This document shows positions 4,107-45,680 of a stretch of DNA of 64,000 nt, in pieces. Position numbers and translations under genes: made by a program. The notes under the pieces were generated by a model. It was not told the DNA's origin. It ran no database searches and was given only the letters and a program-made list of their open reading frames with translations. This DNA comes from Marinobacter salinisoli (GTDB taxonomy: Bacteria > Pseudomonadota > Gammaproteobacteria > Pseudomonadales > Oleiphilaceae), in NCBI RefSeq assembly GCF_017301335.1, contig NZ_CP071247.1:2480001-2544000 (forward strand), given 5' to 3'. Each line of letters opens with the position of its first letter. Positions within the stretch are counted from its first letter, which is position 1.

Positions 4107-4148
4107 CTGGTGGTGCGTTCCTTACGTTACAGCTTGGGTAAGAGTGTC

Positions 4149-27725: not shown

Positions 27726-27816
27726 GGTGGGCTGGCAGAGTGGCTGAATGCAGCGGTCTTGAAAACCGCCGAAGGTTAATAGCCTTCCCGGGGTTCGAAT
27801 CCCTGGCCCACCGCCA
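27726..27816 (+). tRNA. serT: tRNA-Ser (anticodon TGA)
   Basis: Acceptor arms GGTGGGC (27726-27732) and GCCCACC (27806-27812) pair fully, followed by G and the encoded CCA. The anticodon stem GCGGT/ACCGC encloses the loop CTTGAAA with TGA at 27760-27762. The long variable arm (GAAGG...CCTTC) is typical of class II tRNA-Ser. Its 3' end is the attachment site of the adjacent island. Confidence 0.97.
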
Positions 27817-27820
27817 TTTT
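27803..27820. repeat. attL core: 3' end of tRNA-Ser
   Basis: CTGGCCCACCGCCATTTT. The same 18 bases recur at 45663-45680 in the same orientation. They cover the T-arm/acceptor end, CCA and four downstream T. Confidence 0.88.
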
Positions 27821-28086: not shown

Positions 28087-28710
28087 TCAGGCCCAGTCGG
28101 ATAGTATGTCGTCCAATCTCCTAAACTCCTCTATTTGAGCGAACTGCATTTCGGTAAACATGCGTTGATGCTTTTCCTGCAATCGCTCAAACGTGCGAAT
28201 GTGCATTCCTTTTGGACGCGTTCGATCCTTGGGCGCAGAGTTGTTTGGCCGGCCGGTGTAGCTAGCTTCGATTGACCGGAGTTTTCGGAACATTCGCTGA
28301 ATTTGGTTTTCTCGCTGGCTCTGGTAAGCGATCCCCCAGCAATGCCGACAGAGCATCGAATTCGGTCCATAGAGAATTGCCACTCTTTTACTGCATTGGT
28401 CACCTGGGCAAAGAAACCAAGGACGATCACCGCCAAAATGACAGGCGGTTCGAGCGATGCCGATGGTTTGGTACGGAAACAGGTTTGTTTGGTTATCAAA
28501 TGGGCTGTATTTGAGTTCCAAGCAGTCGTCGTAAACGACTATCGAAAATATCCCGCACTTCTTGCCTTGGTTGTACATATGCAGGTTGTACGCTGCCCCG
28601 GGCTTGAGCCCGTCGCTCTTCTGGAGTTTTCGGATATCGAGTGCCACGAACTGTTCGGGGAAAGGTTTTGCCGTTCTTGAAGGTTTTCTTCCGCTAAATA
28701 TCCCGCCCAT
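28087..28710 (-). CDS. Zinc-ribbon hypothetical protein of integrative elements
   Basis: 207 residues, function unknown. Four Cys form a probable zinc ribbon: WFLCPGDQCSKRVAILYG (C-x4-C), then NSMLCRHCWGIAYQSQREN (C-x2-C). The C-terminal part is basic and helical. Proteins with this pattern (CP...C, LYG, CRxCxxxxYxSQ) recur in integrated elements of Proteobacteria, in my recollection. It is the only gene between attL and the defence cassette and may be a DNA-binding accessory protein. Confidence 0.72.
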   Translation of the reverse strand: MGGIFSGRKPSRTAKPFPEQFVALDIRKLQKSDGLKPGAAYNLHMYNQGKKCGIFSIVVYDDCLELKYSPFDNQTNLFPYQTIGIARTACHFGGDRPWFLCPGDQCSKRVAILYGPNSMLCRHCWGIAYQSQRENQIQRMFRKLRSIEASYTGRPNNSAPKDRTRPKGMHIRTFERLQEKHQRMFTEMQFAQIEEFRRLDDILSDWA

Positions 28711-29058: not shown

Positions 29059-32000
29059 TCAACGGGGCGAATCAGTTCTGGCTATCTGGCTCCAGCCATA
29101 GTCGAACGTGAATGTTCGAGCTTGGCCAGCGGGATTCTGAATTCTGAGCACGCGGGCTTGTGCTGGATCGGTCGCGTGTTCGACTATATACAGCCAATAT
29201 GCATCGCCTTTTTCGCGTGCATAGTCGAATTGGGTGTATGACAGGCCCACGGGGCGATCTTCTAGGCTCCCCGTCATCGACTTCACTTCAACCCATCGAA
29301 TCTGCTTGCCAGTGCTGTCGGCCTCATAAAGATCAAACCCGGGGTTGCCTTCTGGCGTTCGAAATAGTGTCGGCTCAAGGTTAGTGATTAGATTGATGGC
29401 GTGCGCTTCGATCTGCATCCGCGCCGATTGATCGAGGCCATCAGGATCGGCTTCATTGTCATCCGGATGTGCGCCGACGTAGGAAATGAATGGCCGTCCT
29501 CCCGCGTGCCCAGGCTTTCTTTTCCCTGGGCCACCAGACCCACGAGGCCCGCCAGACCCGCCAGACCCGCCAGACCCGCCAGACCCGCCAGACCCGCCAG
29601 ACCCGCCAGACCCGCCAGACCCGCCAGACCCGCCAGACCCGCCAGACCCGCCAGACCCGCCAGACCCGCCAGACCCACCAGATCCACCAGATCCACCAGA
29701 TCCACCAGATCCACCAGATCCACCTGTGTCGCCTCCATCGGGGTCAGGGGTTCCTGGCGGGATATCTGGCATATCATCGCCATACAAATCATTGGCATCG
29801 TCGTATACGTCGATGTCGGGTGGCGCGTCGGCTTCCGGTTCCGTATCTGTCGGTTTGTTCGGTTCTGGTACTGGACTGGGCGTTAATCGGGATGCGAGCT
29901 CTGCAACGATAGCGGGATCTCTTCGAAGCAGATCTAGAATTTCTGGATCAATACCAGCTTCCTTGGCCAGCTGATTGATGATTGGCGGCTTAAAGGCAAT
30001 CTTGGTCTGCAGGAAGGGGTTGGGCTTCCAGCCAAGGGTGTCGAATATCACTTGACTCGGCGTAGTCAGTTCGCCATGGCCGTTGGGCACCCAGGCGATC
30101 TGGTTAAGCATTCGAATAAAGGCCGCGTCAAATCGTGCATTCTTTGTTTCACGGTAGTAGCTCCATTCATAAGAACCATAAAATGCCCCGGTTCCGCGCC
30201 CTTCAAGATCTATCAGTGCTTCCCAAAGTACCGTTGCTTTAGTTACCGCTTCACTGTGCTGCAGAGTTGGTAAGAGCTTTAAAAGCTCTTCCAGCCCCCG
30301 AAGAGTGAAGTCTTGTGGTTCGGTCTCCCAGCTAGCGCGCTCAAGGCCGGCTTCTTTTCGGAGCTTTTCCTTTTCGGAGTAACTTAGTTGTGACGGTGTT
30401 GCCTCGGGGGTTAGGTAGCGGCTAGCACCACATGACACCAAAAGGTTGCGGATATCCTCACCGCGAAGACATTCATACTCGTTGTCGACTAGCAGTACAT
30501 CGGGTACGCCGGCGAAAAGTTGCTGCAGGCGCTCAGTGGCAATATAAATTGCGCTGGGCTGGGCGACATAGGTCGCGCCATCCCCACTATCAATCACCAT
30601 TACGAAGTTGTTTTCGTGTAGGGCTGCCTGGAGCTTTTCCTTCTGTTTACCTGAATCTGTTTTGAAAGCAGATAGGATTCGCTCGATGTCCGCCGCGTAA
30701 GCATCGTCATCCACGCTCACTTCTTGGTGCTGATACTTCGGCAGAATATTCCAGATTACGTCATCCACTGGATCAGGCTTGGTGATACCCAGTGAGCTCA
30801 GGAACGATATCGCCTCGGGTGTCGAACATACCGCACGGCTAATAGTGGGAAAATTTGTAGTGATATCGCTGGGTAGGAATGCGTTGGCCATGCCGTCTTC
30901 GCGCGCGACTACATGGGATCCGTCATTAAGACGGATTAGTGGAATGGTATCGAGGCGGCGACGCAGTGCCGCAGCCTCCTGGCCATTCAGAAACTCGTAT
31001 AGCTGCAGCACCCACTCGTCGGGCTGCGCTTCAAGGAATTGCTTGTTTAGGCTCGGTATGAGTCTGGCTGGCGTGATCTCGTCTATGTCGAGTTCGCGCA
31101 TCAGATACTGGCGGACCTCGGGTGCCTTATCCTGTGTAATATCAGCTGATAACCATGCAGTGACCGCAGGATCTAACAGCGCCGCAATCTGGTCTGCACT
31201 GAACAGTTCACGTAATTCTTGCGTGCGCGCCAGCTTTCCCTGATGGGCGGTCACGTACCGGCCGTCGAAAGTTGGTAGCAGAGCCTCCTCTTGAAACGCC
31301 TCCCGGACGGCATCGAATAACGGCGTAAACCGCGATCCTTGAGGAAACTTTTCGGGGTCGATGGGTAGACAGCGAAAAGCCGAAACATCCAGCATCGCTT
31401 CATCGCGCATCCAACGCATCGCTTCCACCAGTAGACTGGACGTTTCCATGACCAGATACTGGTTCCAAGGGTCGCTTGGTGGAACAGTTTCCCGACTGGG
31501 CGTGGTGCGATATGGGCCTTGCACGAGGAAACCAAGGTGGGTCTCCACCACAGTCGGGAAGAACACCACAAGCGGGGAGGTGGCCAGGGGATGAACGACC
31601 CAACGACCTGCAGCATCCTTGGGTTCGACCAGAGAAAACGCGATCTCCACCCTGCCAATCTTCTTCTGCTCCTCCGAGCAGACGTCGCGGTGGAATACTA
31701 GCCAGCTCTGGTCGACCTCAACTTGCCCGGTTTCATGGCCGATGACCGTCACGCGCTTGACGTTTTGCCCGAGTGCCTCCGGCCGGTTGCGCATGTAGAG
31801 CCCGGATGCGCCACCTTCGACGCTCCAGCTAATCTCCTCGACGTTGCGCAGAAACATCAGTGCGCCGGGCCCTAGGTGCCGGAACCCTGTCATGATGTCC
31901 TGTTCTACATCTGGTTCTTCAGCCCTGAGCGGCAGGATGATCTGTGTCTCGTCACTTTGGCGGCGCGTTCGAGTTGTTTGTCTGGGGAAGACGTATTCCT

Positions 32001-32388
32001 GGATAGCGAAGTCTTCTTCACCAGAGTGAATCTCTGGCAGGTCGGTAACCGTGTAGACTGATTTGAAGCCCAGTCCAAAGCGTCCAATGGACGCCTCGTT
32101 CTTTGTGCTCTCTGCAATGTCGCACACGCTTCGGACGTCTGCTTCATCGAATGGCTTGCCGAAGTGGGAAAGCGTCAATGTTGTTGGAGTCAGCTCAAAA
32201 GAGACCTTACGCGGCCCTTGCCAAGCGCCGCGTCGACCTAGGGCATCTTCGGCGTTCTGTAGCAGTTCGAAAATGAAGTGCGTTTGATTGTCATACAACC
32301 CCGCCGCCAGCGCCCCTGACTTTTGAGCGCCTTCCGTGCCATAGCGCCGCCGGTTTTCGTCGCAAATCGCTTCGTAGTTAGATGCCAC
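29059..32388 (-). CDS. Sacsin-type GHKL ATPase with GGS linker and C-terminal DUF3883 nuclease-like domain
   Basis: 1,109 residues, predicted defence protein. The N-terminal GHKL ATP site is clear: N-box ELLQNAED with E41 and N45, then SIGRFGLGFKSVY (about 101-112) as the glycine-rich lid. The middle of about 700 residues is unrecognised. Residues about 888-946 are an almost pure Gly-Gly-Ser repeat, then a basic PRGSGGPGKRKPGHAGG. The end has GFDLYEADSTGKQIRWVEVK, in which D1019, E1034 and K1036 fit a PD-(D/E)XK nuclease core as in DUF3883. It starts at GTG 32388 behind AGGGGGAG. It is divergent from the helicase/methylase operon across 130 bases. Confidence 0.88.
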   Translation of the reverse strand: MASNYEAICDENRRRYGTEGAQKSGALAAGLYDNQTHFIFELLQNAEDALGRRGAWQGPRKVSFELTPTTLTLSHFGKPFDEADVRSVCDIAESTKNEASIGRFGLGFKSVYTVTDLPEIHSGEEDFAIQEYVFPRQTTRTRRQSDETQIILPLRAEEPDVEQDIMTGFRHLGPGALMFLRNVEEISWSVEGGASGLYMRNRPEALGQNVKRVTVIGHETGQVEVDQSWLVFHRDVCSEEQKKIGRVEIAFSLVEPKDAAGRWVVHPLATSPLVVFFPTVVETHLGFLVQGPYRTTPSRETVPPSDPWNQYLVMETSSLLVEAMRWMRDEAMLDVSAFRCLPIDPEKFPQGSRFTPLFDAVREAFQEEALLPTFDGRYVTAHQGKLARTQELRELFSADQIAALLDPAVTAWLSADITQDKAPEVRQYLMRELDIDEITPARLIPSLNKQFLEAQPDEWVLQLYEFLNGQEAAALRRRLDTIPLIRLNDGSHVVAREDGMANAFLPSDITTNFPTISRAVCSTPEAISFLSSLGITKPDPVDDVIWNILPKYQHQEVSVDDDAYAADIERILSAFKTDSGKQKEKLQAALHENNFVMVIDSGDGATYVAQPSAIYIATERLQQLFAGVPDVLLVDNEYECLRGEDIRNLLVSCGASRYLTPEATPSQLSYSEKEKLRKEAGLERASWETEPQDFTLRGLEELLKLLPTLQHSEAVTKATVLWEALIDLEGRGTGAFYGSYEWSYYRETKNARFDAAFIRMLNQIAWVPNGHGELTTPSQVIFDTLGWKPNPFLQTKIAFKPPIINQLAKEAGIDPEILDLLRRDPAIVAELASRLTPSPVPEPNKPTDTEPEADAPPDIDVYDDANDLYGDDMPDIPPGTPDPDGGDTGGSGGSGGSGGSGGSGGSGGSGGSGGSGGSGGSGGSGGSGGSGGSGGSGGSGGSGGSGGPRGSGGPGKRKPGHAGGRPFISYVGAHPDDNEADPDGLDQSARMQIEAHAINLITNLEPTLFRTPEGNPGFDLYEADSTGKQIRWVEVKSMTGSLEDRPVGLSYTQFDYAREKGDAYWLYIVEHATDPAQARVLRIQNPAGQARTFTFDYGWSQIARTDSPR
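29551..29725. repeat. 9-bp tandem repeat encoding Gly-Gly-Ser, about 19 units
   Basis: Two phases are visible on the plus strand: about 14 copies of CGCCAGACC, then about 5 copies of CACCAGATC. All changes by whole units keep the reading frame of the ATPase gene, so the linker length can vary without frameshift. The repeat also leaves other frames open, which creates spurious ORFs. Confidence 0.95.
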
Positions 32389-32423
32389 TGCTCCCCCTCA
32401 ATACGGCCTTTTGGCAGCTCTCG

Positions 32424-32449
32424 GCTTGCCAGGTTTGCCCATGTTTGCC
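32424..32449. promoter_or_regulatory. Three helically phased GYTTGCC repeats, candidate operator
   Basis: GCTTGCC (32424-32430), GTTTGCC (32433-32439) and GTTTGCC (32443-32449) lie 9 and 10 bases apart in the divergent promoter region of the cassette. They could bind the 69-residue HTH protein encoded 70 bases downstream. This is inference from spacing and position. Confidence 0.4.
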
Positions 32450-32518
32450 CGATCAGGCCATCGTATGACAAGATTCCACGTCAGACCAACTTTGGTGCAG
32501 CGGCTAAAAGGTGACCAG

Positions 32519-32728
32519 ATGAGTGACCGCTCTGATGAAATTCTGACGATTGATGAGGTTGCTGCATATCTAAAGGCCGGCAAACGTACGGTATACCGTC
32601 TGGCTGCCAGCGGCAAACTGCCCGGGTTTAAGCTAGGTGGCACATGGCGGTTTAGGCGGGGTGACCTGGATCAATGGATCGCCACCCGTATCAACAAGAA
32701 GGTAGATGACAGCGAGGGGGCAGAATGA
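32519..32728 (+). CDS. Small MerR/excisionase-type HTH DNA-binding protein
   Basis: 69 residues. The helix-turn-helix of the helix_turn_helix_17/excisionase type covers most of it: LTIDEVAAYLKAGKRTVYRL, then GKLPGFKLGGTWRFRRGDLD with the terminal DQWIAT. AAAGGTG lies six bases before the ATG at 32519. The stop overlaps the helicase start (ATGA), so the two are translationally coupled. It is either the regulator of the divergent cassette or a targeting subunit; excision is less likely because it is far from the integrase. Confidence 0.85.
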   Translation: MSDRSDEILTIDEVAAYLKAGKRTVYRLAASGKLPGFKLGGTWRFRRGDLDQWIATRINKKVDDSEGAE

Positions 32729-35634
32729 CTACCGGTGCTGCTCACCTTCAGTCCAAAGCCAACCCTGAGCAGCTAAAAGCTATCCTGGCTACAGACGGCC
32801 CGGTGCTAATCATTGCGGGGCCGGGATCGGGTAAAACCTTCACGCTAGTCGAGCGCATTGTCTATTTAATAACCGAAAAAGGGGTCGAGCCCGAGTCGCT
32901 GCTAGTTGTCACGTTTACCGACAAGGCTGCACGAGAGTTGACCACCCGTATCTCGAATCGGTTAGCCGAGCTGGGCATTCAGTTCAATTTGAACGAAATG
33001 TACCTTGGTACCTTCCATTCGATCTGTCTGCGGTTGCTGGAAGATTATCGTGAGTTCACGCGGCTAAAGCGGAGCTTCACGCTATTTGACCAGTTCGACC
33101 AACAGTACTTCCTTTACCAGCGCATTAAGGACTTTCGTGAGATGCCCGATGCCCATTTAGTAATGGGTGAAGACCAGAAGGGGCGCTGGGCACAGTCGGA
33201 GAGCTTACTTAAGTGGCTTAATAAAGTCAGCGAAGAGGCGCTCGATGCAGCAACACTGGCGGCGGCGTCAGAGCCAGAAATTCGCGTCCTTGCGGCGTGC
33301 TTCAGTAAGTACCTGGATCTTCTGAACGAGAACAACTCGCTCGACTTCTCCGGTATTCAATACGAAGCACTGCAGCTGCTAGAAAGGCACCCCGAAGTGT
33401 TGGTGCAATTGCGTGAAAAGCTTACACATCTGATGGTGGACGAGTACCAAGATACCAACACCATACAGGAACGCATTCTTCTGTTACTCGCAGGCGAGCA
33501 CCAAAATTTGTGCGTGGTAGGGGATGACGATCAGGGCCTATACCGCTTTCGTGGGGCCACCATTCGCAACATTTTGGAGTTCCCTACGCTATTCGGTGAG
33601 GGTCGATGTAAGCAGGTTAAACTTACTGTCAATTACCGCTCGCACCCAGACATCATCCGCTTCTACACCGAGTGGATGAAGGAGCAGGTTTGGGACGATG
33701 GTACCCGCGTGTTTCGCTTTCCCAAGCAGATCTTGCCGCGAGAGGACGATTTTACAGAGCAGCCCACGGCAGTCCGCTTGGCAGCCGGTGATGATGATGG
33801 GGGCAACACAAACTGGAACGCCGAGGTTCTCGCGTTCCTCAATGGTTTGAAGGACTCAGGTCAGGTCGCGGACTGGAATCAGGTGGCGTTCCTTTTTCGC
33901 TCGGTTAAAAGTGACAAGGCAGTGGCGCTGGCGCGTTTTCTCGAAGCACAAGGGGTGCCGGTCTATTCGCCTCGTTCGAACATGTTCTTCGAGCGTGAAG
34001 AAATCCGTTTGATGATCGGTGCGCTGATTTTCCTATTCCCGCAGTTTCCAAAGGTGAGGGCGTGGGTCGAAGGCGTTACGCTGCCAATTTGGGACTACTA
34101 CGACCACCAGTGTTTCAAGCCGTTCACCGACGAATTGCGGAAGCCGGAGAACAAACCATTGCTGGATTGGGCGCGGCCATTGGCCAAGCGTCACGCCGTG
34201 CTAGCACAGAACACTGACTACTCGTTCTCGGGCTTGTTTTACCAGCTACTGCAATTCCCTCTGTTTTCGCGTTTTCTTAGTGAAGAAGTATTGCAGGGGG
34301 TTGATAAGGGACGTGCAGCGAGAAACCTCGGCACTTTTTCCAAGTTGCTGACTAAATTCGAGTACCTACACTATGTCAGCGTACTCAACCCGGAATTTCT
34401 GGAAAAAAATCTACGTGACTTTTTCAACCAATTCCTACGCTTTCTCCTGAGCGGTGGTATCGGCGAATACGAGGACGAGGCAGAGTACGCGCCCAAGGGC
34501 TGCGTCTCGTTTCTTACCATTCATCAGTCCAAAGGGCTGGAGTTCCCGGTGGTGGTTTGCGGCTCGCTGGAAGCGGTACCGCGCAAGCAATACAGCACCC
34601 TGGATGTGATGCTGGAAGACGGTGGCTACCTCTCTAAAGAGCGTTTTGAGCCACTCGAACATATCAAAAGGTTCGATTTCTGGCGGCTGTTCTACACCGC
34701 TTTCTCTCGCGCCCAGAATCTTCTAGTGCTTGCTGCGCAGGAAAAGCAAGGTCAGGGGAGGTCGCCCTCCAAATATTTCCAGCGCCTGTTTTACGAGCTT
34801 CCGAACTGGCGCGACATTGATCTCTCAGGGCTGACCTTCGAAGCGGTGAAGCAGATCAACCTCAAACGCGAATATTCATTCACATCGCACATTACGGTGT
34901 TCGAGAACTGCGCCGAGCAGTACCGGTTCTTCAAGGAGCTTGAATTCGCACCTGTTCGCGAAAGTCCGATGCTGTTCGGCACCTTGGTGCACCAGACTAT
35001 CGAGGACATCCACAAGAGCGTCTTGCGGGGTGAAGAGGGAAAGCTTTCTTTAGACGCCATTGAAGGTTGGTTCTCGGCAAACTACGCCATGCTCTCGAAG
35101 AAGGAGCGCGTATACCTTGCTCCTTCTTCGCAGCGGGCGGCGTTGCTGCACGTATTGCGCTATTACGAGCGCGAGAATGGAAATTGGGATCGCATCAAGG
35201 AGGCCGAGGTCGATATTTCGCTTGTCAAGGATCAGTACATATTGAAGGGCAGTGTCGACTTGATCCGCGGCGAAAACAATACGGTCGAAATCATCGACTT
35301 CAAGTCTGAGAAGAAGCCGGATATGGAGAAGGATCGGGAGCGGCTGCGCCAATATCAGCACCAGCTTGAGGTCTATGCCCATCTGGTGGAAGAGCGTACG
35401 GGCCAGCGGGTTAGCCGAATGCATCTTTACTATACGGGCGAAGACGGTGGTAACCCTTACGTCTCCTTTTCAAAGGATGACCGGGCCATCGGGAATACTA
35501 TCGCGCGCTTTGATGACATCGTGGCACGTATCGAGAGCCAGGATTACCAGATCGAAACACGCCCTACAAAACTGTGTCAGAGCTGCGACATGCGTGGCTA
35601 CTGCGACAACAAGAATTGGAACTTCAGGAATTGA
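32725..35634 (+). CDS. UvrD/Rep-type helicase fused to an AddB/Cas4-like Fe-S nuclease
   Basis: 969 residues. Superfamily 1A helicase motifs: Walker A IAGPGSGKTFTL (about 30-41), VVTFTDKAARELTTR, motif II LMVDEYQDTNTIQER (near 236), VVGDDDQGLYRFRGA, and motif V FLTIHQSKGLEFPVVV (near 600). The C-terminal 250 residues form a RecB-family nuclease with GSVDLIRG (D845) and EIIDFKSEK (D858, K860). Four Cys complete an Fe-S staple: C729 in FENCAEQYRFF, then C951, C954 and C960 in LCQSCDMRGYC. That arrangement is typical of AddB and Cas4. So it looks like a DNA-end-processing helicase-nuclease within a restriction-like operon. Confidence 0.92.
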   Translation: MTTGAAHLQSKANPEQLKAILATDGPVLIIAGPGSGKTFTLVERIVYLITEKGVEPESLLVVTFTDKAARELTTRISNRLAELGIQFNLNEMYLGTFHSICLRLLEDYREFTRLKRSFTLFDQFDQQYFLYQRIKDFREMPDAHLVMGEDQKGRWAQSESLLKWLNKVSEEALDAATLAAASEPEIRVLAACFSKYLDLLNENNSLDFSGIQYEALQLLERHPEVLVQLREKLTHLMVDEYQDTNTIQERILLLLAGEHQNLCVVGDDDQGLYRFRGATIRNILEFPTLFGEGRCKQVKLTVNYRSHPDIIRFYTEWMKEQVWDDGTRVFRFPKQILPREDDFTEQPTAVRLAAGDDDGGNTNWNAEVLAFLNGLKDSGQVADWNQVAFLFRSVKSDKAVALARFLEAQGVPVYSPRSNMFFEREEIRLMIGALIFLFPQFPKVRAWVEGVTLPIWDYYDHQCFKPFTDELRKPENKPLLDWARPLAKRHAVLAQNTDYSFSGLFYQLLQFPLFSRFLSEEVLQGVDKGRAARNLGTFSKLLTKFEYLHYVSVLNPEFLEKNLRDFFNQFLRFLLSGGIGEYEDEAEYAPKGCVSFLTIHQSKGLEFPVVVCGSLEAVPRKQYSTLDVMLEDGGYLSKERFEPLEHIKRFDFWRLFYTAFSRAQNLLVLAAQEKQGQGRSPSKYFQRLFYELPNWRDIDLSGLTFEAVKQINLKREYSFTSHITVFENCAEQYRFFKELEFAPVRESPMLFGTLVHQTIEDIHKSVLRGEEGKLSLDAIEGWFSANYAMLSKKERVYLAPSSQRAALLHVLRYYERENGNWDRIKEAEVDISLVKDQYILKGSVDLIRGENNTVEIIDFKSEKKPDMEKDRERLRQYQHQLEVYAHLVEERTGQRVSRMHLYYTGEDGGNPYVSFSKDDRAIGNTIARFDDIVARIESQDYQIETRPTKLCQSCDMRGYCDNKNWNFRN

Positions 35635-35639
35635 GACAT

Positions 35640-37580
35640 ATGACTAAAAGTACTCCTGTGCAAGAAAGCCTTCAGATTGCCACTCCCGATGGGGAAACCA
35701 CCAACGTCGAGAACTATGAGTTTGAGCCGATCAGGGGCTATCCGATGCTTAACTGGCGGGGCAAACGACCATTCACATCAACGCAGTACTATCCTGCGCA
35801 ATTGAAGGAAGTACACGGCGAAGAAGTGAATGGTTGGCGCAATAAGGTTTTCTGGGGTGACAACCTGCAGGTGATGGGCCACTTGCTGAAAGAGTTTCGT
35901 GGGAAAGTAGACTTAATTTACATCGATCCGCCTTTTGATTCCAAGGCGGAATACAAAAAATCGATTCGACTTAAAAATGCAAGCGCTTCATCGGACTCAT
36001 CACCATTCGAGGAAAAGCAATATAGCGATATTTGGAACAATGACGAATATTTACAGTTCATTTATGAGCGGATGATATTGGCCAAAGAGTTGCTGACGGA
36101 CGGAGGCTCACTCTACTTTCACTGCGACTCGCACAGAGTGCACTACATCAAGTGCTTGCTAGACGAAATTTTCGGGGTTGAAAATTTCATGAATGATGTG
36201 ATTTGGAAGCGTACTGGGTCACATAATAGTGCGAAACGTTACGGTCCGATCCATGACACATTACTTTTCTACACTAAGGGGCCAAATTTTCATTGGTCTG
36301 GCATCACCACGCCATACGATGAGGAATACAAAAAGCGTTTTAGCTATGCCGATCCAGATGGTCGTAAGTTCCAACCAATAAGCCTAATTGCAGCGGGGCT
36401 ACGAGCCGGTTCGACTGGTAAGCCTTGGCGTGGAATTGACGTGGCTAAGAACGGAAATCATTGGCGGACCACGGTCGAGAAGCTTGAGAAGCTTGATGAA
36501 GATGGCTATATTTTTTGGCCCCCGGGTGGAGGACTGCCTCGTCTAAAGCAGTATTTAGATGAAGCCAAAGGAAATCCAATCCAAGACATCTGGACCGATA
36601 TTCCAGCCATCAACTCTCAAGCACAAGAGAGAGAAGGATACCCCACTCAAAAACCAGAAGCGCTGCTAAAGCGAGTGATTGAGGCATCCACTCCGCCGGG
36701 TGCACTTGTACTTGATTTCTTCATGGGTTCAGGAACTACACAGGTTGCTGCGATGAAACTCGGTCGCAGATTTATTGGTGCGGATATCAATCTCGGATCA
36801 ATCCAGACCAGTACAAGGCGCTTGATTGGTGTTGCCGATAAAGTTCGACAAAAAAACCTAGATGAAGAGCACGACCGTTGGACCGGCTTCGAAGTATATA
36901 ACGTCAACCACTACGATATTTTCCGCAACCCCGTTCAAGCTAAGGAACTGCTTGTCGAAGCGCTTGAAATACAGAAGTTAGAATTCAGTACCGTATTCGA
37001 TGGTGAGAAAGATGGCCGTATGGTAAAGATCATGCCGGTCAATCGCATCTCTACTCGTGCCGATCTGAACGAGCTTGTTGCGGGCTTCGACTATAAGGCA
37101 TGGGAACGTAAACAGAACGAGAGGCCTAACCAGCCGGTCGAGAAGATAGCCCTTATCTGCATGGGACACGAGCCAGATTTGGCTGCGCAACTGGAGTTTG
37201 CCGCCAAGCCCTTCAAGATCGATGTAGAGGTGGTGGATATCTTACGCGACAAGGCTGATCTAGAGTTCAAGCGCGACGCGCAGGCGAAAGTTGTTATCAA
37301 GAATGGAGAGCTTGTCATTGAGAAGTTTTACCCGATGAACCTTCTGCAAAAACTTTCGCTGCAAAAGGAGTCGGTTGAGGACTGGAAAGAGTTGGTCGAG
37401 TCCGTGTTAGTCGACTGGAACTACGATGGCGGAGTGTTACAGCCCGCAGTGGTGGATATCCCCGGTAAAAAAGACATGGTGAAAGGGGTGTACAAGATAC
37501 CCGCCGAGGCTGGAACCATCCGCGTGAAGATCACGGACCTACTCTCGGAGTCGTGGGAAGGAGAATTGAGTAATGGCTAA
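35640..37580 (+). CDS. Beta-class DNA methyltransferase (type III Mod-like)
   Basis: 646 residues. The catalytic motif IV is DPPF (residues 96-99, LIYIDPPFDSKAEY), and the SAM motif FMGSGT comes later (361-366, VLDFFMGSGTTQVAAMKLG). This order defines the beta class, which includes type III Mod subunits and N6-adenine or N4-cytosine enzymes. DPPF instead of DPPY is a tolerated variant. PTQKPEALLKRVIEAS precedes motif I. The C-terminal 250 residues are longer than the catalytic core and may hold a target-recognition or partner domain. It starts five bases after the helicase stop and overlaps the next gene by eight bases. Confidence 0.93.
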   Translation: MTKSTPVQESLQIATPDGETTNVENYEFEPIRGYPMLNWRGKRPFTSTQYYPAQLKEVHGEEVNGWRNKVFWGDNLQVMGHLLKEFRGKVDLIYIDPPFDSKAEYKKSIRLKNASASSDSSPFEEKQYSDIWNNDEYLQFIYERMILAKELLTDGGSLYFHCDSHRVHYIKCLLDEIFGVENFMNDVIWKRTGSHNSAKRYGPIHDTLLFYTKGPNFHWSGITTPYDEEYKKRFSYADPDGRKFQPISLIAAGLRAGSTGKPWRGIDVAKNGNHWRTTVEKLEKLDEDGYIFWPPGGGLPRLKQYLDEAKGNPIQDIWTDIPAINSQAQEREGYPTQKPEALLKRVIEASTPPGALVLDFFMGSGTTQVAAMKLGRRFIGADINLGSIQTSTRRLIGVADKVRQKNLDEEHDRWTGFEVYNVNHYDIFRNPVQAKELLVEALEIQKLEFSTVFDGEKDGRMVKIMPVNRISTRADLNELVAGFDYKAWERKQNERPNQPVEKIALICMGHEPDLAAQLEFAAKPFKIDVEVVDILRDKADLEFKRDAQAKVVIKNGELVIEKFYPMNLLQKLSLQKESVEDWKELVESVLVDWNYDGGVLQPAVVDIPGKKDMVKGVYKIPAEAGTIRVKITDLLSESWEGELSNG

Positions 37581-40248
37581 GCGAAAAATCCAAAGTGCCT
37601 CGCTCGACTTCGCCTTCTTCCAATTCTTGTGGCAATTCTATCAGTCCAATCGAGGCACGATCCGCACGCATTACAAAGAGCTGACGCGCAAATTTCTGGA
37701 TTTCAACAACCCAGAGAAGAATCCAAAGGCTTTCTTGCGTCAGCCACAATTCGAGGCGTTAGAGGTTTATATCTTCCTCAAGGAGTTCCTTGGTAACGCC
37801 AAAGTTGAAAAGATTTTTCAGCAGTGGTTCGAAAAGCAAGGTCGATTCGGGGGTCGGGCTGAAGGCGGAATCGTGTCAGATAAATCTGGCCAGGCAGACT
37901 TACTTGACCAGATAACACAGGATCAGTACAAAGCTGTATTCGCCGCAATGCGCAAGAACTCGCGTGCCTACCCAAACTACATTTTTGCGCTAACGATGGG
38001 TACCGGCAAAACCATCCTGATGGCGACCTGCATCTTCTATGAATTCCTGCTGGGCAACAAATTCGAGAAAGACGCGCGATATTGCCACAATGCGCTGGTG
38101 TTTGCCCCTGACAAGACTGTGCTGCAGTCATTGAAGGAGATCGAGTCCTTTGACCTTACGTGCGTGGTGCCACCAGAGTACGTTAGTTTCCTGACCACAC
38201 ACCTGCGCTTTCATTATCTTGAAGAAGCTGGTACCTCACTCGACACTTTGGACCGGTCGCGTTTCAATATTATCGTCTCCAACACACAGAAAATTATTCT
38301 AAAGCGCAAGCATAAAGAGAAGTCTTCTGTCGACAAACTTTTTGGGGCTAACGGACAAACACTGAGAACAACCGGCGTCTATTCTGACGCCGCGGATCTC
38401 TACGATTTTGATCAGCCCGAGGAAGAGGGCGAGCTAACTACTAACCAGCGATTTGAGAAGCTGCGTCGCTTGGAGCAGTTGGGTATATATGTCGACGAGG
38501 CCCATCACGCTTTTGGCAAGGCATTAGCAAAGGATATGGGTATCGGAGCGAAGGCAACTGATACCAGTCTGCGCACTACAATTGATATCTTGTCCGCCAG
38601 TCTTAGCGCGTCGGGCACCAGGGTGGTTGCCTGCTATAACTTTACCGGCACTCCCTACGTCGGGCGTGAGGTGCTACCAGAGGTGGTCTACACCTACGGA
38701 CTAAAGGACGCCATCGATAAGGGCTTTCTTAAGAATGTGATGCTTCATGGCTATGCCAACACACGGACCGATGAATTTGTCGATATAGCCATCGAGAAAT
38801 TTTTGGAGGAAACTGGCGAAATTCGACCCGAGGGGCTGCTGCCAAAGTTGGCCTTCTTCGCGGCCACTATTGACGAATTGAATAACGAGCTGAGGCCGGC
38901 GGTGGAGCGCGTGTTGCTTAAGCACGGCATTCCAACCTCGCGCATTCTGGTTAACGTGGGTGACAACAAGCTAACCACGAACGACGATATCCGGGAGTTT
39001 AATAGGCTAGACAAGGCAGAATCGGAGAAACAATTCATCCTTCTTGTAAATAAGGGTCGCGAGGGATGGAACTGTCGTTCGCTATTCGGTGTTGGCCTTT
39101 TCCGGGAACCTAAATCTAAGGTGTTTGTACTGCAGGCCACGATGCGTTGTTTGCGAGCCATCGGTAAGGCCCAGTATACCGGCCATGTTTTCCTGTCGGA
39201 CGACAACCTGAAAACCCTGAACGACGAACTCCAGCAAAATTTCCATATTAGTACTGATGAGTTACAGAAAGTTGGGAAGGATAAAGAGCGGGTACAAATT
39301 CGGGTGGTTGAGCCCCCTGTCAAAATCAGGTTAGTACGAGTACGTAAACAGTATCAGATGCGGGAGAAAGTGCTCGTGCCCGGTCAGCCTCTAGGCCTAA
39401 ACCGAGCTGATAAGGAGAGCTGGAACTTGCTGGTAGAAAAGTATCGACTGGTAGAAATTCAGCAGGAAGGTTTGGCAACTCCTGAGGCGGCGCGTGCCTC
39501 CGGTAGTCAGACCTTCGACTTGACTGAGCGCCGGGAGAAGCGGACTTTCTCACGGCTATCGTTGGTTGCGGAGGTGTCCCGCTATCTGAACCTTGCGCCG
39601 CTAGACGTCGAGGAGCTTCTCGATGCTACTGAGGAAGGTGCTGATGAGTTGGTTGCTATAGCCAATGAATTTAACGAGCTACTCTATGACGAAATAATTC
39701 CGCGTTTATTCCGTCAATTATACGACCTTGATGAATCGCAGAAAACCGAAGAGCACGAGGTCGATTTGATAAAAGTTCCTTCCGCCGGCTATTACGAGAT
39801 GTCTGCGGAAAAGGACAAGATTGTGCGAATGAGCGACGAGCAGGTCAAAGAGGAGGGACGCTCCAAGAGCTTCCACCTTGACACCTACTGCTTCGATTCT
39901 GGTTCTGAGAATTGGCTGTTTTGGGACCTGCTTCGTGAGCAGCGGGTGAAGAAAATCTATTTCACCGGGATGTTGACGCACGGCCAATCGGATTTTTTTA
40001 TTCAGTACATCGACCCCGATTCGCACACTGTCCGAAGCTACTATCCGGATTTCATTTTTCAGCGTGAGGAACCAGATGGAAGCCTGAAGTATGTAATCGT
40101 TGAAGTAAAGGCTGACAACCAGGTTGAGGACTCTGTGGTGCAGGCCAAAAAGGACTTCGCTCAGCAGATCGCGGTGGCCAGTGGGATGGAGTACCGCATC
40201 TTGAAGTCCTCCGATGCGGATAAGCGGCATTTCCGAATGCTACTGTAG
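37573..40248 (+). CDS. Res-like DEAH helicase with C-terminal PD-(D/E)XK motif
   Basis: 891 residues, related to restriction subunits of type III systems. Walker A TMGTGKTILMATCIF (T141-T147) and DEAH box VDEAHHAFGK (D308-H311) are followed by FTGTPYVGREVLPEVVYTYG. Helicase motif VI lies near VLQATMRCLRAIGK. A nuclease-like end shows YYPDFIFQ (D826), then YVIVEVKADNQ (E844, K846), giving the PD...ExK pattern. It overlaps the methylase stop, with GGAG upstream of the ATG. Together with the methylase it resembles a Mod-Res pair, but here linked to a UvrD-nuclease and a GHKL protein. Confidence 0.92.
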   Translation: MAKRKIQSASLDFAFFQFLWQFYQSNRGTIRTHYKELTRKFLDFNNPEKNPKAFLRQPQFEALEVYIFLKEFLGNAKVEKIFQQWFEKQGRFGGRAEGGIVSDKSGQADLLDQITQDQYKAVFAAMRKNSRAYPNYIFALTMGTGKTILMATCIFYEFLLGNKFEKDARYCHNALVFAPDKTVLQSLKEIESFDLTCVVPPEYVSFLTTHLRFHYLEEAGTSLDTLDRSRFNIIVSNTQKIILKRKHKEKSSVDKLFGANGQTLRTTGVYSDAADLYDFDQPEEEGELTTNQRFEKLRRLEQLGIYVDEAHHAFGKALAKDMGIGAKATDTSLRTTIDILSASLSASGTRVVACYNFTGTPYVGREVLPEVVYTYGLKDAIDKGFLKNVMLHGYANTRTDEFVDIAIEKFLEETGEIRPEGLLPKLAFFAATIDELNNELRPAVERVLLKHGIPTSRILVNVGDNKLTTNDDIREFNRLDKAESEKQFILLVNKGREGWNCRSLFGVGLFREPKSKVFVLQATMRCLRAIGKAQYTGHVFLSDDNLKTLNDELQQNFHISTDELQKVGKDKERVQIRVVEPPVKIRLVRVRKQYQMREKVLVPGQPLGLNRADKESWNLLVEKYRLVEIQQEGLATPEAARASGSQTFDLTERREKRTFSRLSLVAEVSRYLNLAPLDVEELLDATEEGADELVAIANEFNELLYDEIIPRLFRQLYDLDESQKTEEHEVDLIKVPSAGYYEMSAEKDKIVRMSDEQVKEEGRSKSFHLDTYCFDSGSENWLFWDLLREQRVKKIYFTGMLTHGQSDFFIQYIDPDSHTVRSYYPDFIFQREEPDGSLKYVIVEVKADNQVEDSVVQAKKDFAQQIAVASGMEYRILKSSDADKRHFRMLL

Positions 40249-40406: not shown

Positions 40407-40641
40407 GTTGCAACATGTTTGTTTCTGAAAAGGTATGTTCCTGAAGCGCCAATGGTTGTGGATTGAATAAAGCTTGTGCAGCTGAAACAGGGATGTTTAC
40501 AGTGATTGATTCGAGTTTTTGTTCAATGATCCACGTTTCGATGACAGGAGTTATAGAGTCTTCTGGGCAGACGGCAATCCGATTACCCATCAGGTTTTCA
40601 GCGTCTAATCCATGCTCATGAAGATAGGCAAGTGCGTTCAT
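40393..40641 (-). CDS. Hypothetical 82-residue protein of the satellite module
   Basis: No recognised family. It opens MNALAYLHEHGLDAENLMGN, then RIAVCPEDSITPVIETWIIE. The opening resembles small regulatory or primase-associated proteins of P4-like elements, in which a short helical start precedes a strand-rich part. Its ATG overlaps the stop of the replication gene (ATGA), so it belongs to that operon. Confidence 0.65.
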   Translation of the reverse strand: MNALAYLHEHGLDAENLMGNRIAVCPEDSITPVIETWIIEQKLESITVNIPVSAAQALFNPQPLALQEHTFSETNMLQLTEC

Positions 40642-42851
40642 CAGAACACCCTCCTATTTGCGGCTGAATTGCCGGTTTTTGGAGGGAGGTCTATGGACCT
40701 ACTCGGATCTGAAGTCAGAGAAGTCGGAAGTTTTTCCTTCTTTGTAGTGTTATCCACGACTTCAAGACATTGATGACTTTGGACTAAAGAATTTCTCAGT
40801 CCGATTCTCCATTTGACGGTAGACCCGATTTTCCCAAGGCATTTGCACTCGATACCGAGCTGACGCAACGCGGGGGCTGCCCGGCGCATTGCATCACCAA
40901 GCCCCCTGGGTGACCGGGGCCATGAATCACAGTTTCGGGGCTTGAAACCTTCCAGGATATTCAGCCATTTCTTTGCTGAGTGCTCCTCGATTAGGTCACA
41001 TTTTGATTCAGCCCAGTCCCGAATTGCCGAGGCAACAGGACTTGCGTCCAGTGTGCGTTCAAGTCCGTCTTGGCGAGCAGCGTTAAATTGCCTCATAAAA
41101 CTTTCAGGTGGCTGATTCATGGCCTTGGCTACTGCCATGCCAAGATAGGCAAATTCGACCAAGCGTGGACGTTGTTCTGCTGGCAAGGTCATGTCTGGAA
41201 GGTATTCGAAAGCCCTTGCTGCAATATCCATGAGCGCCCCGAGAATGCCCGCGTGATGCCTCTCAAAGTCAGCCTCCAGCTTATCCTTGGGGCACGCATC
41301 AGTTATAACCGGCAGTTCGATACTGATTGCCCGTGATACCGCGTCTTGCTGAGTAATGGCAGCCACAATGCCGTTGAGGATTGCAGGGCGTTTTAGCGTG
41401 ATAACAACCTCGTCACTATCACTGTAAAGCTTGCGCCTCGCGAATCCCCCGCCGGTCGCAATTACGCACAGTGCGTCCTGAATTGGCGCGGGCAAATGGC
41501 TTACATTTTCGATGCTGAGGATGTGATTTGTGCCGCCGGTCACATACAGATCTTCAGCGGACTTCGGTGCGGCTCTGAGGTCGGCAGCGTTAGGATCTAT
41601 AAGCCGCCGGAGAGCAGACTGAGTGGTACTTTTTGCACATCCCTGTTCACCGAACATCTCCAGAATCGGGAACGGAGTATCTAATCTTAAACATTCCACT
41701 AGCCATGCTGTCACAAGGAGTTGCTGATGGCTTGGGATGTTGGCGATTCGCCATAGTGGCTCAATACTCCCACCCCTGACGGGGCGCGGAAGTGGCTGCG
41801 TGCTTTCAGACCTTGGGAACATCACCGGACTGTCAAAGATGTCCCATTTTCCAGGCATGATGCAGATGGCGGCACTTTGGCCGGGCTCAGCAAGATCAAG
41901 CCAGTGTTGACCATTTACGCTCGCGACTCGAAGGTATACCGATCGCTGTTCCTGCATTGCGATGCCCTCGAGCGTCATTTTTGCTTCGCGTAACGATTGA
42001 TCCCTGATGGCCCTTTCGTATTTCTGGTAGAAAGCTGAAGTCAGCCAATGCCTAAAGGCCTTACTGGCGACTGAACGCACTTCGCCTGTTTCAATATTCC
42101 GCGCGTGCGCGATATTGTTTTTGTCGTGGAACAATTCATTGAATGTTTGAACAAAAGCGACAATTTGGTCCGATTGCGACTGGCGCTCGCGTTCTGTTTT
42201 TTCGGTTGTCTGGGAATCAGGCTTGATCGGTGGGGTGATACCATCTTCAAACTCAGCCAGAACTGCATCTGATCCTGACATCTGATGAACATCGCTCCAA
42301 TCTTTTTCCGTTTGCGGGCATGTCCAGGAACAGCCGGACTTTTGGCCTGCTCTCTTGCCTGCATTGTCGTTATCCACTGCGGCAATAAGCTTGAGAGTAG
42401 GGGTCAGCTTTCTGATTGCCTCTACGTTGCCGGGAATGTTCAGTTCACCAACGCCACACGCCACTGGAAGTCCTGTTGCCTCGTGCAGTCGATATCCATC
42501 GGCTAGCCCGGCACAAACAATCAGTCTCCCGGTCAAGGTAGCTAGGTCTGCAAGCTCGAACCCAATAGGTGTGCAGGATCCAGCTGTTTTAGCGCCTTTA
42601 GTAACTAACTTGTTCTTTGGCTTCTCATCTGGATTTCGCTGAACAGGCTCCGAAAGGATTCGTTCATGCCCGCAGTGTTCTTGAGTGTCAATCAGAAAAA
42701 GTGGCCGAAATATAGCGTCGCCTTCCCACGGTGTAATCGGCTTTCCTTCGCTGTCAAAACAAGAGAGAGTGACCTGCTCTATAGAGCAGCCGAGAGGTTC
42801 CATAGCTTGCCATTCAATCTCTTTCTCAATGAGGTAGGGGTGGGGTTTCAT
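40641..42851 (-). CDS. Toprim/helicase replication protein of the element
   Basis: 736 residues, probable replication protein of the satellite. A Toprim-like stretch lies at about 105-170: GRLIVCAGLADGYRLHEATG, then KLIAAVDNDNAGKRAGQKSG, with the DxD type acid pair in DNDNAG. A helicase-like ATPase follows near residues 385-500: ILEMFGEQGCAKSTTQSALR (Walker A GEQGCAKST), then HILSIENVSHLPAPIQDALC (Walker B-like). No archaeo-eukaryotic primase core was seen. The acid of the usual Toprim Glu is replaced by Ala/Gly (CAGLADG), so primase activity is doubtful. It overlaps AlpA by ATGA. Confidence 0.8.
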   Translation of the reverse strand: MKPHPYLIEKEIEWQAMEPLGCSIEQVTLSCFDSEGKPITPWEGDAIFRPLFLIDTQEHCGHERILSEPVQRNPDEKPKNKLVTKGAKTAGSCTPIGFELADLATLTGRLIVCAGLADGYRLHEATGLPVACGVGELNIPGNVEAIRKLTPTLKLIAAVDNDNAGKRAGQKSGCSWTCPQTEKDWSDVHQMSGSDAVLAEFEDGITPPIKPDSQTTEKTERERQSQSDQIVAFVQTFNELFHDKNNIAHARNIETGEVRSVASKAFRHWLTSAFYQKYERAIRDQSLREAKMTLEGIAMQEQRSVYLRVASVNGQHWLDLAEPGQSAAICIMPGKWDIFDSPVMFPRSESTQPLPRPVRGGSIEPLWRIANIPSHQQLLVTAWLVECLRLDTPFPILEMFGEQGCAKSTTQSALRRLIDPNAADLRAAPKSAEDLYVTGGTNHILSIENVSHLPAPIQDALCVIATGGGFARRKLYSDSDEVVITLKRPAILNGIVAAITQQDAVSRAISIELPVITDACPKDKLEADFERHHAGILGALMDIAARAFEYLPDMTLPAEQRPRLVEFAYLGMAVAKAMNQPPESFMRQFNAARQDGLERTLDASPVASAIRDWAESKCDLIEEHSAKKWLNILEGFKPRNCDSWPRSPRGLGDAMRRAAPALRQLGIECKCLGKIGSTVKWRIGLRNSLVQSHQCLEVVDNTTKKEKLPTSLTSDPSRSIDLPPKTGNSAANRRVF

Positions 42852-43171: not shown

Positions 43172-44071
43172 TTATCTAAGCCTAATTCCATTATCCTTGG
43201 CGTATTGACGAATCCAATTCGTAACGGTCCGGGGCTCGTATTCGAACCCCTTTTCTCTAAGCCAGTCGGCATAGTGAATCCCAGCCTTTTCAGTGCTTGC
43301 AAAAGTAGTCTTCTTATCGTTCCAGTCTTCGGTGACGAGGCTGCGAGCTTCATTTCGTCTTGCATGTCGCACCTTGTTACCTGTCTCGGACTTTTCCCAT
43401 TTCGCAAAACGCTCGCGTCGACTGATGGCGTCTCTTATCCTCTTATAGTTGTCGATTTTGTCGAACCAGTAACGGGCCAACTCATGATCATCCACGTAAG
43501 CATCATCAAGAGCGTACTTCACTGCGATATTATCGATGTGGCAAAGGGTAAAATAGGCGGCCAGGAATTCGCGATCGTAAGGCCAATCGTCAAAATCCTG
43601 TTCTAAATTAACGGTCTCCATGATGTTATCAAGTATACGGATTAATGGTTCGATCCGGTGGCCGTAGGCTGTCCAAGGATCGGTTTGGTCTACCCGGATA
43701 GACTCTTGCCCTGGAATAGACTCTTCTGAATCTGAATTGATCACGCGTATATGGCCACCCTCGATTAGAGGTTCCAGCATTTCCTCGTGTCCATTCCACA
43801 CTTTAATTAGGCCGCCAAGGAAGTAGTAAAAAACAGTGTCAATAACTATCCGTGTGATTTCTAGATCTAATTTCGATGCTAAGCAGTCAAAGGCCCGTTT
43901 GCCAAACTTCCACAAAACGGGATTATGAATAATCTGTGGGGCTCTACCCGGGATGGGAATAATTAGAGCATGATTTTTTTCACCTTCCCCATTATCTTTG
44001 AAGGATTCAATGGGATCGATTACCCAGTACAACCATTTTGCGCCGGTGCCTCCTCCATCAAAATCTTTCAA
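43172..44071 (-). CDS. Hypothetical protein coupled to the integrase
   Basis: 299 residues with no recognised family. The C-terminal 60 residues look like a DNA-binding or helical domain: FASTEKAGIHYADWLREKGF, then EPRTVTNWIRQYAKDNGIRL. The middle is acidic with DDWPYDREFLAAYFTLCHID. Its ATG overlaps the integrase TGA, so it is co-translated with the integrase. It could be an accessory recombination or control protein of the element. Confidence 0.72.
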   Translation of the reverse strand: MKDFDGGGTGAKWLYWVIDPIESFKDNGEGEKNHALIIPIPGRAPQIIHNPVLWKFGKRAFDCLASKLDLEITRIVIDTVFYYFLGGLIKVWNGHEEMLEPLIEGGHIRVINSDSEESIPGQESIRVDQTDPWTAYGHRIEPLIRILDNIMETVNLEQDFDDWPYDREFLAAYFTLCHIDNIAVKYALDDAYVDDHELARYWFDKIDNYKRIRDAISRRERFAKWEKSETGNKVRHARRNEARSLVTEDWNDKKTTFASTEKAGIHYADWLREKGFEYEPRTVTNWIRQYAKDNGIRLR

Positions 44072-45366: not shown

Positions 45367-45522
45367 GTCAGCTGATTCCATTCAGGCGATGAGAGCTCAA
45401 ATCTGGAAAAGAGCTATAAACTCCGACCAGTAGCGTCAAAGGAGCAGGAAGGTGTCCGGTGAAGAGTAGAGCATGGACAGTCGGATGAAACCTGTAATCA
45501 ATCTTGGCCAGAAACCTAACTA

Positions 45523-45662: not shown

Positions 45663-45680
45663 CTGGCCCACCGCCATTTT
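45663..45680. repeat. attR core
   Basis: CTGGCCCACCGCCATTTT, identical to the tRNA-Ser end at 27803-27820. Bases on either side differ (T before, C after), so the repeat is exactly 18 bases. Confidence 0.88.

Follow-up and report, generated by a model that had tools for sequence, protein, structure and literature searches.

A UvrD-methyltransferase-Res core with an optional GHKL partner: a probable defence cassette on an integrative island of Marinobacter salinisoli

Five cargo genes and a recurrent core

The stretch of DNA analysed here (the window) comprises 64,000 nucleotides of the genome of Marinobacter salinisoli (contig NZ_CP071247.1 of assembly GCF_017301335.1, positions 2,480,001 to 2,544,000 of the forward strand), which is 3.72 Mb in size and consists of one contig. 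The window contains an integrative island of about 17.9 kb, extending from the 3' end of a tRNA-Ser gene to position 45680, and the cargo of this island is formed by five genes, encoding a GHKL ATPase, a small helix-turn-helix (HTH) protein, a UvrD helicase-nuclease, a DNA methyltransferase and a Res-like helicase-nuclease. A preliminary description, made from the sequence, had proposed these genes as a single new five-gene defence system. They are instead a core that had already been predicted (UvrD, methyltransferase and Res) plus an optional partner of a known type. The cargo genes and two features associated with them are the following:

29059-32388, minus strand: GHKL (sacsin-type) ATPase with a C-terminal DUF3883/NOV_C PD-(D/E)XK-like domain, TmtA-like, 1109 residues (Pfam, PADLOC, motifs, structure model)
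32433-32448, plus strand: conserved direct repeat with a 10-base period, candidate operator (DNA alignment of the divergent promoter region)
32519-32728, plus strand: excisionase-type HTH protein, 69 residues, or 87 if it starts at ATG 32465 (HTH_17, 1.5e-18; NF047737; PHROG 66)
32725-35634, plus strand: superfamily 1 (SF1) UvrD helicase fused to a Cas4/AddB-like four-cysteine (iron-sulphur, Fe-S) PD-(D/E)XK nuclease (Pfam, profiles, alignment)
35640-37580, plus strand: Mod-like beta-class N6/N4 DNA methyltransferase, with an in-frame GTG upstream at 35574 (Pfam, structure-profile matches, motif order)
36132-36674, plus strand: variable target-recognition region, residues about 165-345 of the methyltransferase (identity blocks, rank correlation, mosaic pairs)
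37573-40248, plus strand: Res-like superfamily 2 (SF2) DEAH ATPase with a C-terminal TnsA-like PD-(D/E)XK nuclease (Pfam, motifs, model)

All five open reading frames (ORFs) are open and intact at the positions given in the preliminary description, and the tight packing noted there was confirmed: the HTH and UvrD ORFs share four bases (ATGA), five bases separate UvrD from the methyltransferase if the latter starts at ATG 35640, and the methyltransferase and Res ORFs overlap by eight bases.

The UvrD protein combines an SF1 helicase (Pfam UvrD, 3.6e-76), whose nearest solved chains are PcrA/UvrD, with a nuclease of the PDDEXK_1 family (PF12705, 6.3e-22; Cas_Cas4, 1.3e-5), in which residues H756, D845, D858, K860 and Q880 and the cysteines 729, 951, 954 and 960 are invariant across 28 aligned rows. 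The methyltransferase (N6_N4_Mtase, 4e-52) is assigned to the beta class because its motif IV (DPPF96) stands before motif I (FMGSGT361), and its best matches among solved structures are Mod proteins (6k0w, 1.2e-34; EcoP15I 4zcf, 2.1e-33). The Res-like protein matches ResIII (5.5e-6) and a TnsA-like nuclease (1.7e-8), and its residues P825, D826, E844 and K846 are invariant across 32 aligned rows. Its structure model (mean predicted local distance difference test score, pLDDT, 73.1) resembles SF2 translocases in general, the nuclease end being barely covered by the fold matches. Similarity of Res to solved type III Res proteins was not detectable by sequence, and its assignment as a canonical type III Res by sequence was rejected for that reason. 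These features support the earlier reading of the genes as a Mod/Res-like pair with an added UvrD/Fe-S nuclease in a defence-type cassette. It weighs against the Mod-like assignment that the best PADLOC profile for the methyltransferase is a type II methyltransferase; the best match to Mod does not extend past about profile position 367 and leaves the well-conserved C-terminus without a counterpart.

A scan for Res, with one genome per species, returned 159 relatives, and the loci of the best 80 of the 159 were studied. In 77 of the 80, the methyltransferase gene precedes Res in the same orientation, within 100 bases in 70 loci and at 134-1338 bases in seven; in the remaining loci (L059, L062 and L080) the fetched stretch leaves little room before Res, which begins at its base 3, 15 or 241. 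An overlap of exactly eight bases between the two genes recurs in 33 of 76 loci. UvrD was detected in 70 of the 80 loci. Of the 66 with at least 5.4 kb of room, 63 have it at most 6 kb upstream; the exceptions are L051 and L071, without UvrD, and L068, where it is farther off. The hosts of the core include Proteobacteria, Firmicutes, Chloroflexi, Bacteroidetes, Acidobacteria and others. Among 229 sampled genomes (own genome included), four carry UvrD and all four have a Res match; one Res match is partial, with the contig ending just after it, and a fifth Res is distant (28%). In a sample of 399 genomes (seed genome included) there are likewise four UvrD genomes, all with Res, and a fifth, distant Res (34%); with the seed excluded, the chance of this coincidence is about 1e-7 under an assumption of independent genomes, which does not hold. 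Because of the linkage, the kept order and the coincidence of UvrD and Res in the same genomes, UvrD, methyltransferase and Res are a real unit. The core spans many phyla, yet the matches listed for its proteins in PADLOC-DB 2.0.0 stay generic (for UvrD and the methyltransferase, the best 25 of 66 and of 70 families).

The middle of the methyltransferase shows, at the level of sequence, the pattern of an exchanged target-recognition domain. In 312 locus pairs with UvrD proteins 80-97% identical, the mean identity of the methyltransferase blocks within residues 161-360 is 27-51%, against means of 0.86 for UvrD and 0.84 for Res and block values of 82-94% for the methyltransferase from residue 441. 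The same decoupling was seen in rank correlations over 57 loci, window included, each with three full-length proteins: all 180-residue windows of UvrD and Res and the C-terminus of the methyltransferase correlate with the partner protein at 0.88-0.96, whereas the methyltransferase windows starting at 121, 181 and 241 give -0.15 to -0.11 with UvrD, and the windows between are intermediate. The identity of the recognition region exceeds that of UvrD in 16 of 1596 pairs, and mosaic pairs include the window and L033 (recognition region 83%, UvrD 74%), L070 and L039 (81% and 52%), and L073 from Lentibacillus and L024 from Ectorhizobium (81% and 59%). This decoupled recognition region, beside proteins that otherwise diverge together, is the new result of the analysis.

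As Res and UvrD stay unchanged when the recognition region changes, they would have no sequence reading of their own and would take their aim from the methyltransferase. Thus, it is most likely that both depend on the methyltransferase for aim, by analogy with type III systems and unlike type II systems, a contrast that is well established for these families. To judge from the sequence pattern, the methyltransferase is most likely the part that gives the whole assembly its specificity, which is the role of Mod in type III, and the decoupled region makes the mechanism directly testable.

Several variants of the core were observed. In a Dechloromonas metagenome-assembled genome (MAG; L007), HTH and UvrD form one ORF (1043 residues) and the methyltransferase and Res another (1554 residues), which may be an assembly error, and at L004 a WYL gene precedes UvrD. 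Res relatives were found in 25 plasmid records, 14 of them from Enterococcus and several partial, and the three that were inspected show the order helicase-methyltransferase-Res. On the Enterococcus faecium plasmid pDY28-poxtA (L118, 4379-11619) the core is flanked on both sides by copies of IS1216, and on the Nitrosomonas eutropha plasmid p1 (L119) it comes right after genes of a recombinase, a DDE transposase and an AAA ATPase, in the manner of transposon cargo. In the Acutalibacteraceae phage NatCom_11578 (L122, 6445-14598), annotated helicase and methyltransferase genes and a gene for a Res relative follow each other as in the core, except that another gene, of 246 residues, lies between the first two.

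GHKL and HTH proteins as optional partners

The GHKL protein matches SACS (3.4e-15) and NOV_C/DUF3883 (1.9e-8) in Pfam, and its ATPase boxes and the nuclease-like residues D1019, E1034, K1036 and Q1053 are invariant across 22 aligned rows; in this way, all three PD-(D/E)XK-like sites predicted in the preliminary description (GHKL, UvrD and Res) were borne out. In PADLOC, the complete match list of this protein consists of TmtA only, with nine profiles (best 225 bits), of which PDLC03972 spans residues 25-783 and PDLC03969 residues 829-1107. The name TmtA presumably stands for Tiamat. A literature search for "TmtA", which covered few subscription journals and had preprints outside its scope, returned no paper. 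In the structure model (mean pLDDT 66.9), residues 981-1090 form a mixed helix/strand domain with block pLDDT values of 61-87, and the ATP-lid stretch and the linker preceding it are modelled poorly. The fold search with this model retrieved chiefly Hsp90/sacsin and some MutL structures with low overall template-modelling scores, the middle region being uninformative. DUF3883 is named a restriction endonuclease domain in the available part of PMC3710099.

GHKL was detected in 25 and HTH in 20 of the 80 loci, and both are optional additions to the core. The preliminary proposal of one five-gene unit is therefore not supported: the order UvrD-methyltransferase-Res is widely kept in unrelated genomes, while HTH and GHKL do not always accompany it, and a close GHKL gene also occurs apart from the core. 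A divergent GHKL accompanies the core in 21 of the 35 loci with a UvrD sharing 75% or more identity with that of the window, and in none of the 24 others; at L036, the GHKL copy sits downstream of Res. Whole-genome searches of 15 core genomes gave a close GHKL in ten, a distant one in a single genome and no match at E 1e-20 in the other four. Mapped on a tree of 38 UvrD proteins, GHKL switches between present and absent at least ten times; the rows of this tree were chosen by hand, with L036 scored as lacking GHKL owing to its downstream copy, and with L004, which has a cut GHKL at a distance of 3.5 kb, and loci lacking a full-length UvrD (among them L007, L016 and L026) left out. Loci with GHKL and loci lacking it provide a natural experiment on the poorly understood TmtA-like proteins.

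The strongest rival of a joint cassette is that the GHKL/TmtA-like gene is an independent Tiamat-type system, which shares the island and the divergent promoter region with the core and builds no joint machine with it. This is a substantial possibility, though not the favoured one. It is suggested by the nine TmtA profiles, by the 14 of 35 close core loci without a divergent GHKL, by a close GHKL (68%) without the core in genome G388 (L123), located beside BRO-N and housekeeping genes, and by distant relatives that adjoin SNF2-type helicases (L126 and L125). A C-terminal GHKL fragment was found in genome G350. The divergent arrangement kept in 21 of 35 loci argues the other way, as does the co-divergence of GHKL and UvrD (Spearman 0.82 over 21 loci, reached in none of 2000 permutations), which indicates that the pairing is old within this branch. 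In the order sample, with the seed excluded, GHKL adjoins the core in all three core genomes, whereas the other 216 genomes contain two close copies, of which one is a fragment (p 5.8e-6, assuming independent genomes, as above); the 220-genome GHKL sample is apparently part of the 399-genome sample, judged from 27 of the 220 genomes. Some cores also have a TmtA-like neighbour from another branch. In a Desulfamplus MAG (L063, 8530-13437), a TmtA-like gene of 1635 residues (1494 bits) lies directly 3' of Res on the same strand; upstream of the core, one from another branch is split into two ORFs at L127, and one at L058 (506 bits) is cut by the end of the stretch. Together with the displaced copy of L036, these cases speak against full independence. 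The repeated presence of TmtA-like genes of several branches beside cores argues for some functional benefit of keeping such a gene with the core.

Outside the core context, a plasmid search with GHKL gave five distant records, which do not overlap with the 25 that contain Res. Distant GHKL/TmtA-like genes were also seen directly 3' of helicase genes, which are of the SNF2 type in L126 and L125, the former DrmD-like by PADLOC; the helicase of L121 is annotated as "helicase-related protein". A distant GHKL/TmtA-like gene with a helicase may thus be a separate two-gene arrangement. Locus L036 encodes a second NOV_C/DUF3883 protein (3695-4714, 339 residues) upstream of the core, opposite in position to its GHKL gene.

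The small HTH protein barely passes the MAD1 model NF047737 (81.8 bits at a cutoff of 80). Between the divergent HTH and GHKL genes, a repeat of the unit GTTTGC with ten-base spacing is read as a candidate operator on the strength of its sequence. It occurs in 11 of 17 loci having both HTH and GHKL, in none of seven GHKL loci without HTH and in none of three HTH loci without GHKL, the pattern having been defined after viewing the alignment from which it was then counted. A sigma-70/terminator scan of 32300-32760 gave no match. The HTH protein probably regulates the promoter region common to GHKL and the core.

Proposed mechanism and related systems

The cargo is best read, with reasonable though not high confidence, as a two-layer defence cassette composed of a type III-like UvrD-methyltransferase-Res core and an optional GHKL-nuclease layer. 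In the first layer, the methyltransferase would methylate self sites set by the exchangeable recognition region and, in a complex with the SF2 ATPase/nuclease Res, would guide it to unmethylated sites, where Res, having used ATP, would cut the incoming DNA; the UvrD/Fe-S nuclease would then unwind and degrade the broken ends, by which phage rejoining or recombination could be prevented. In the second layer, where present, the divergent TmtA-like GHKL-DUF3883 protein may act as a second ATP-gated nuclease under HTH control. The scheme of the preliminary description, in which the methylase marks self, Res cuts, UvrD degrades and GHKL senses or gates, remains reasonable as a prediction from sequence.

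The papers cited by PMC number in this section were available in part, and what is said of them refers to those parts. The preliminary description knew of no named system with this gene set. Something like it has been described both for the GHKL protein, given its TmtA profiles, and for the core, for which Hudaiberdiev et al. 2017 (PMC5704561) found a UvrD-Cas4 fusion most commonly neighbouring type III Mod and Res and predicted a defence role. As in the core, an SF1 helicase of the UvrD type carries a fused pfam12705/Cas4-like nuclease there, its gene neighbours are Mod and Res, and some loci also contain HTH and WYL genes. That neighbourhood is the core described here, matched by domains and gene order rather than sequence by sequence, and the prediction of the core dates from 2017. 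It differs in that its available text has no sacsin-type GHKL/DUF3883 partner, no system name and no remark on the recognition region, MORC ATPases appearing only with Dcm/Vsr.

The same work bears on another possibility, that the UvrD/Fe-S nuclease is a repair helper guarding the host from Res breaks at unmethylated self sites. Its RecB/AddB-like domain plan would suit such a task, and PMC5704561 suggests an ancillary or recombination role and reports the fusion in a Dcm/Vsr context as well. A repair helper should more often be found on its own; every UvrD genome in both samples has Res, and the gene order is widely kept, which makes this role rather unlikely. An improbable alternative is a BREX-like, non-cleaving system, with self marking by the methyltransferase and with Res and UvrD halting phage replication through translocation. 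In its favour, the decoupled recognition region is what any system with a single specificity subunit would show; against it stand the two PD-(D/E)XK sites of the core, intact and invariant in 28 and 32 rows. Least probable of all is an epigenetic/regulatory or plasmid-maintenance cassette without an anti-phage role, suggested by the Res relatives in the 25 plasmid records and, with helicase and methyltransferase genes, in a phage genome, and disfavoured by the three active-looking nuclease sites and the defence-type neighbours. Those neighbours come from ten loci for which the locus survey gave no GHKL match, where seven of ten flanking ORFs, hand-picked mostly by size, match PADLOC profiles (IetS, TmtA, PDC-S60, GajB, LmuB, ShosA and HerA), LmuB and HerA weakly and GajB maybe as a generic UvrD match.

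The two-layer cassette resembles several known systems. With type III restriction-modification systems (EcoP15I and EcoPI; PMC4005696) it shares a Mod-like beta-class methyltransferase of about 650 residues with a central recognition region and an adjoining SF2 ATPase with a C-terminal PD-(D/E)XK nuclease, and differs in the extra Fe-S helicase-nuclease gene and in a Res without detectable sequence similarity to solved type III Res. The Bad helicase-nuclease of Geobacillus (PMC7430649), for which its authors consider a new restriction enzyme class, unites an Fe-S RecB-type nuclease and an SF1 helicase in one protein and is encoded next to a type III Mod-like methyltransferase. In it, according to the description, the nuclease is N-terminal (D150) and the helicase follows (K815), the reverse of the order in UvrD, so Bad was set aside as a UvrD orthologue and is taken as an analogue. 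Iyer et al. 2008 (PMC2292703) described GHKL proteins (MORC/paraMORC) with an SF2 helicase and a methylase in operons resembling restriction-modification systems, which matches the general idea of a GHKL ATPase adjoining a type III-like helicase-nuclease and methylase; the GHKL protein of the island differs in being of the sacsin/Hsp90 type with DUF3883, divergent and optional. In the Shedu protein VcSduA (PMC12137116), a GHKL ATPase and a nuclease domain are likewise joined in one chain, but it is described as acting alone, methyltransferase or helicase partners not being mentioned in that text. The nuclease-like end of the island protein matches NOV_C/DUF3883, and its PADLOC matches are confined to TmtA. 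Tiamat is named in PMC12629846 and MADS in PMC11980395, both without gene anatomy in the available parts. Hma was rejected, as HmaB is a 5-methylcytosine methyltransferase (PMC8565338) and the enzyme of the island is of the N6_N4/beta class. HmaA, which is present in the PADLOC library, is absent from the matches listed (for UvrD and the methyltransferase, the best 25 families each).

The N-terminal GHKL and C-terminal DUF3883 parts of the island protein fit the nine profiles of what we take to be Tiamat; it differs in being shorter (1109 residues) than eight of the nine profiles, in its moderate score and in its linkage to the core. MADS, in which MAD1 occurs together with the other mad genes, was rejected, with only the small HTH protein fitting (MAD1); no mad gene appears in the full sets of PADLOC matches of GHKL, Res and the ORFs at 28087, 40641 and 43172, nor among the best 25 for UvrD and the methyltransferase. 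Within the same literature scope as above, no publication dealing with the five-gene arrangement or the exchanged region was found.

A bolder reading is put forward tentatively, as it is more doubtful than the two-layer cassette itself: that the core represents a distinct restriction class, in which one exchangeable Mod-type subunit steers both an SF2 cutter and an SF1 Fe-S unwinder that destroys the cut DNA, and which in Proteobacteria is gated by a GHKL nuclease controlled from the shared divergent promoter. The exchanged recognition region itself leads to the prediction that replacing this single segment of the methylase would redirect both motor-nucleases; type III restriction would then be linked to end degradation of the RecB/AddB type in one cassette.

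Remaining genes of the island

The placement of the five genes as cargo of an integrative island, made in the preliminary description, was upheld by an exact 18-base direct repeat, a tRNA-Ser gene and a tyrosine integrase, which together with the other ORFs of the island are located as follows:

27726-27816, plus strand: tRNA-Ser (tga), attachment gene of the island (ARAGORN)
27803-27820, plus strand: attL-like 18-base direct repeat, exact copy of 45663-45680, overlapping the tRNA-Ser 3' end
28087-28710, minus strand: ORF of 207 residues, family-less
40641-42851, minus strand: primase/Toprim-like island replication protein, 736 residues (PHROG 4913, 6.2e-20; weak Toprim_3 below its cutoff)
43172-44071, minus strand: ORF of 299 residues, family-less, overlapping the integrase ORF by four bases
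44068-45381, minus strand: tyrosine integrase, inside the right end of the island (profile matches)
45663-45680, plus strand: attR-like 18-base direct repeat, right end of the island, exact copy of 27803-27820

The island had no megablast match in E. coli genomes, and among plasmids only its Res gene was matched, in two Nitrosomonas records. The primase-like protein gave no PADLOC match, and the 207-residue ORF had none in Pfam, PADLOC, NCBIfam or PHROGs. Relatives of the latter, 26-27% identical, are located near the core in loci L040 and L043.

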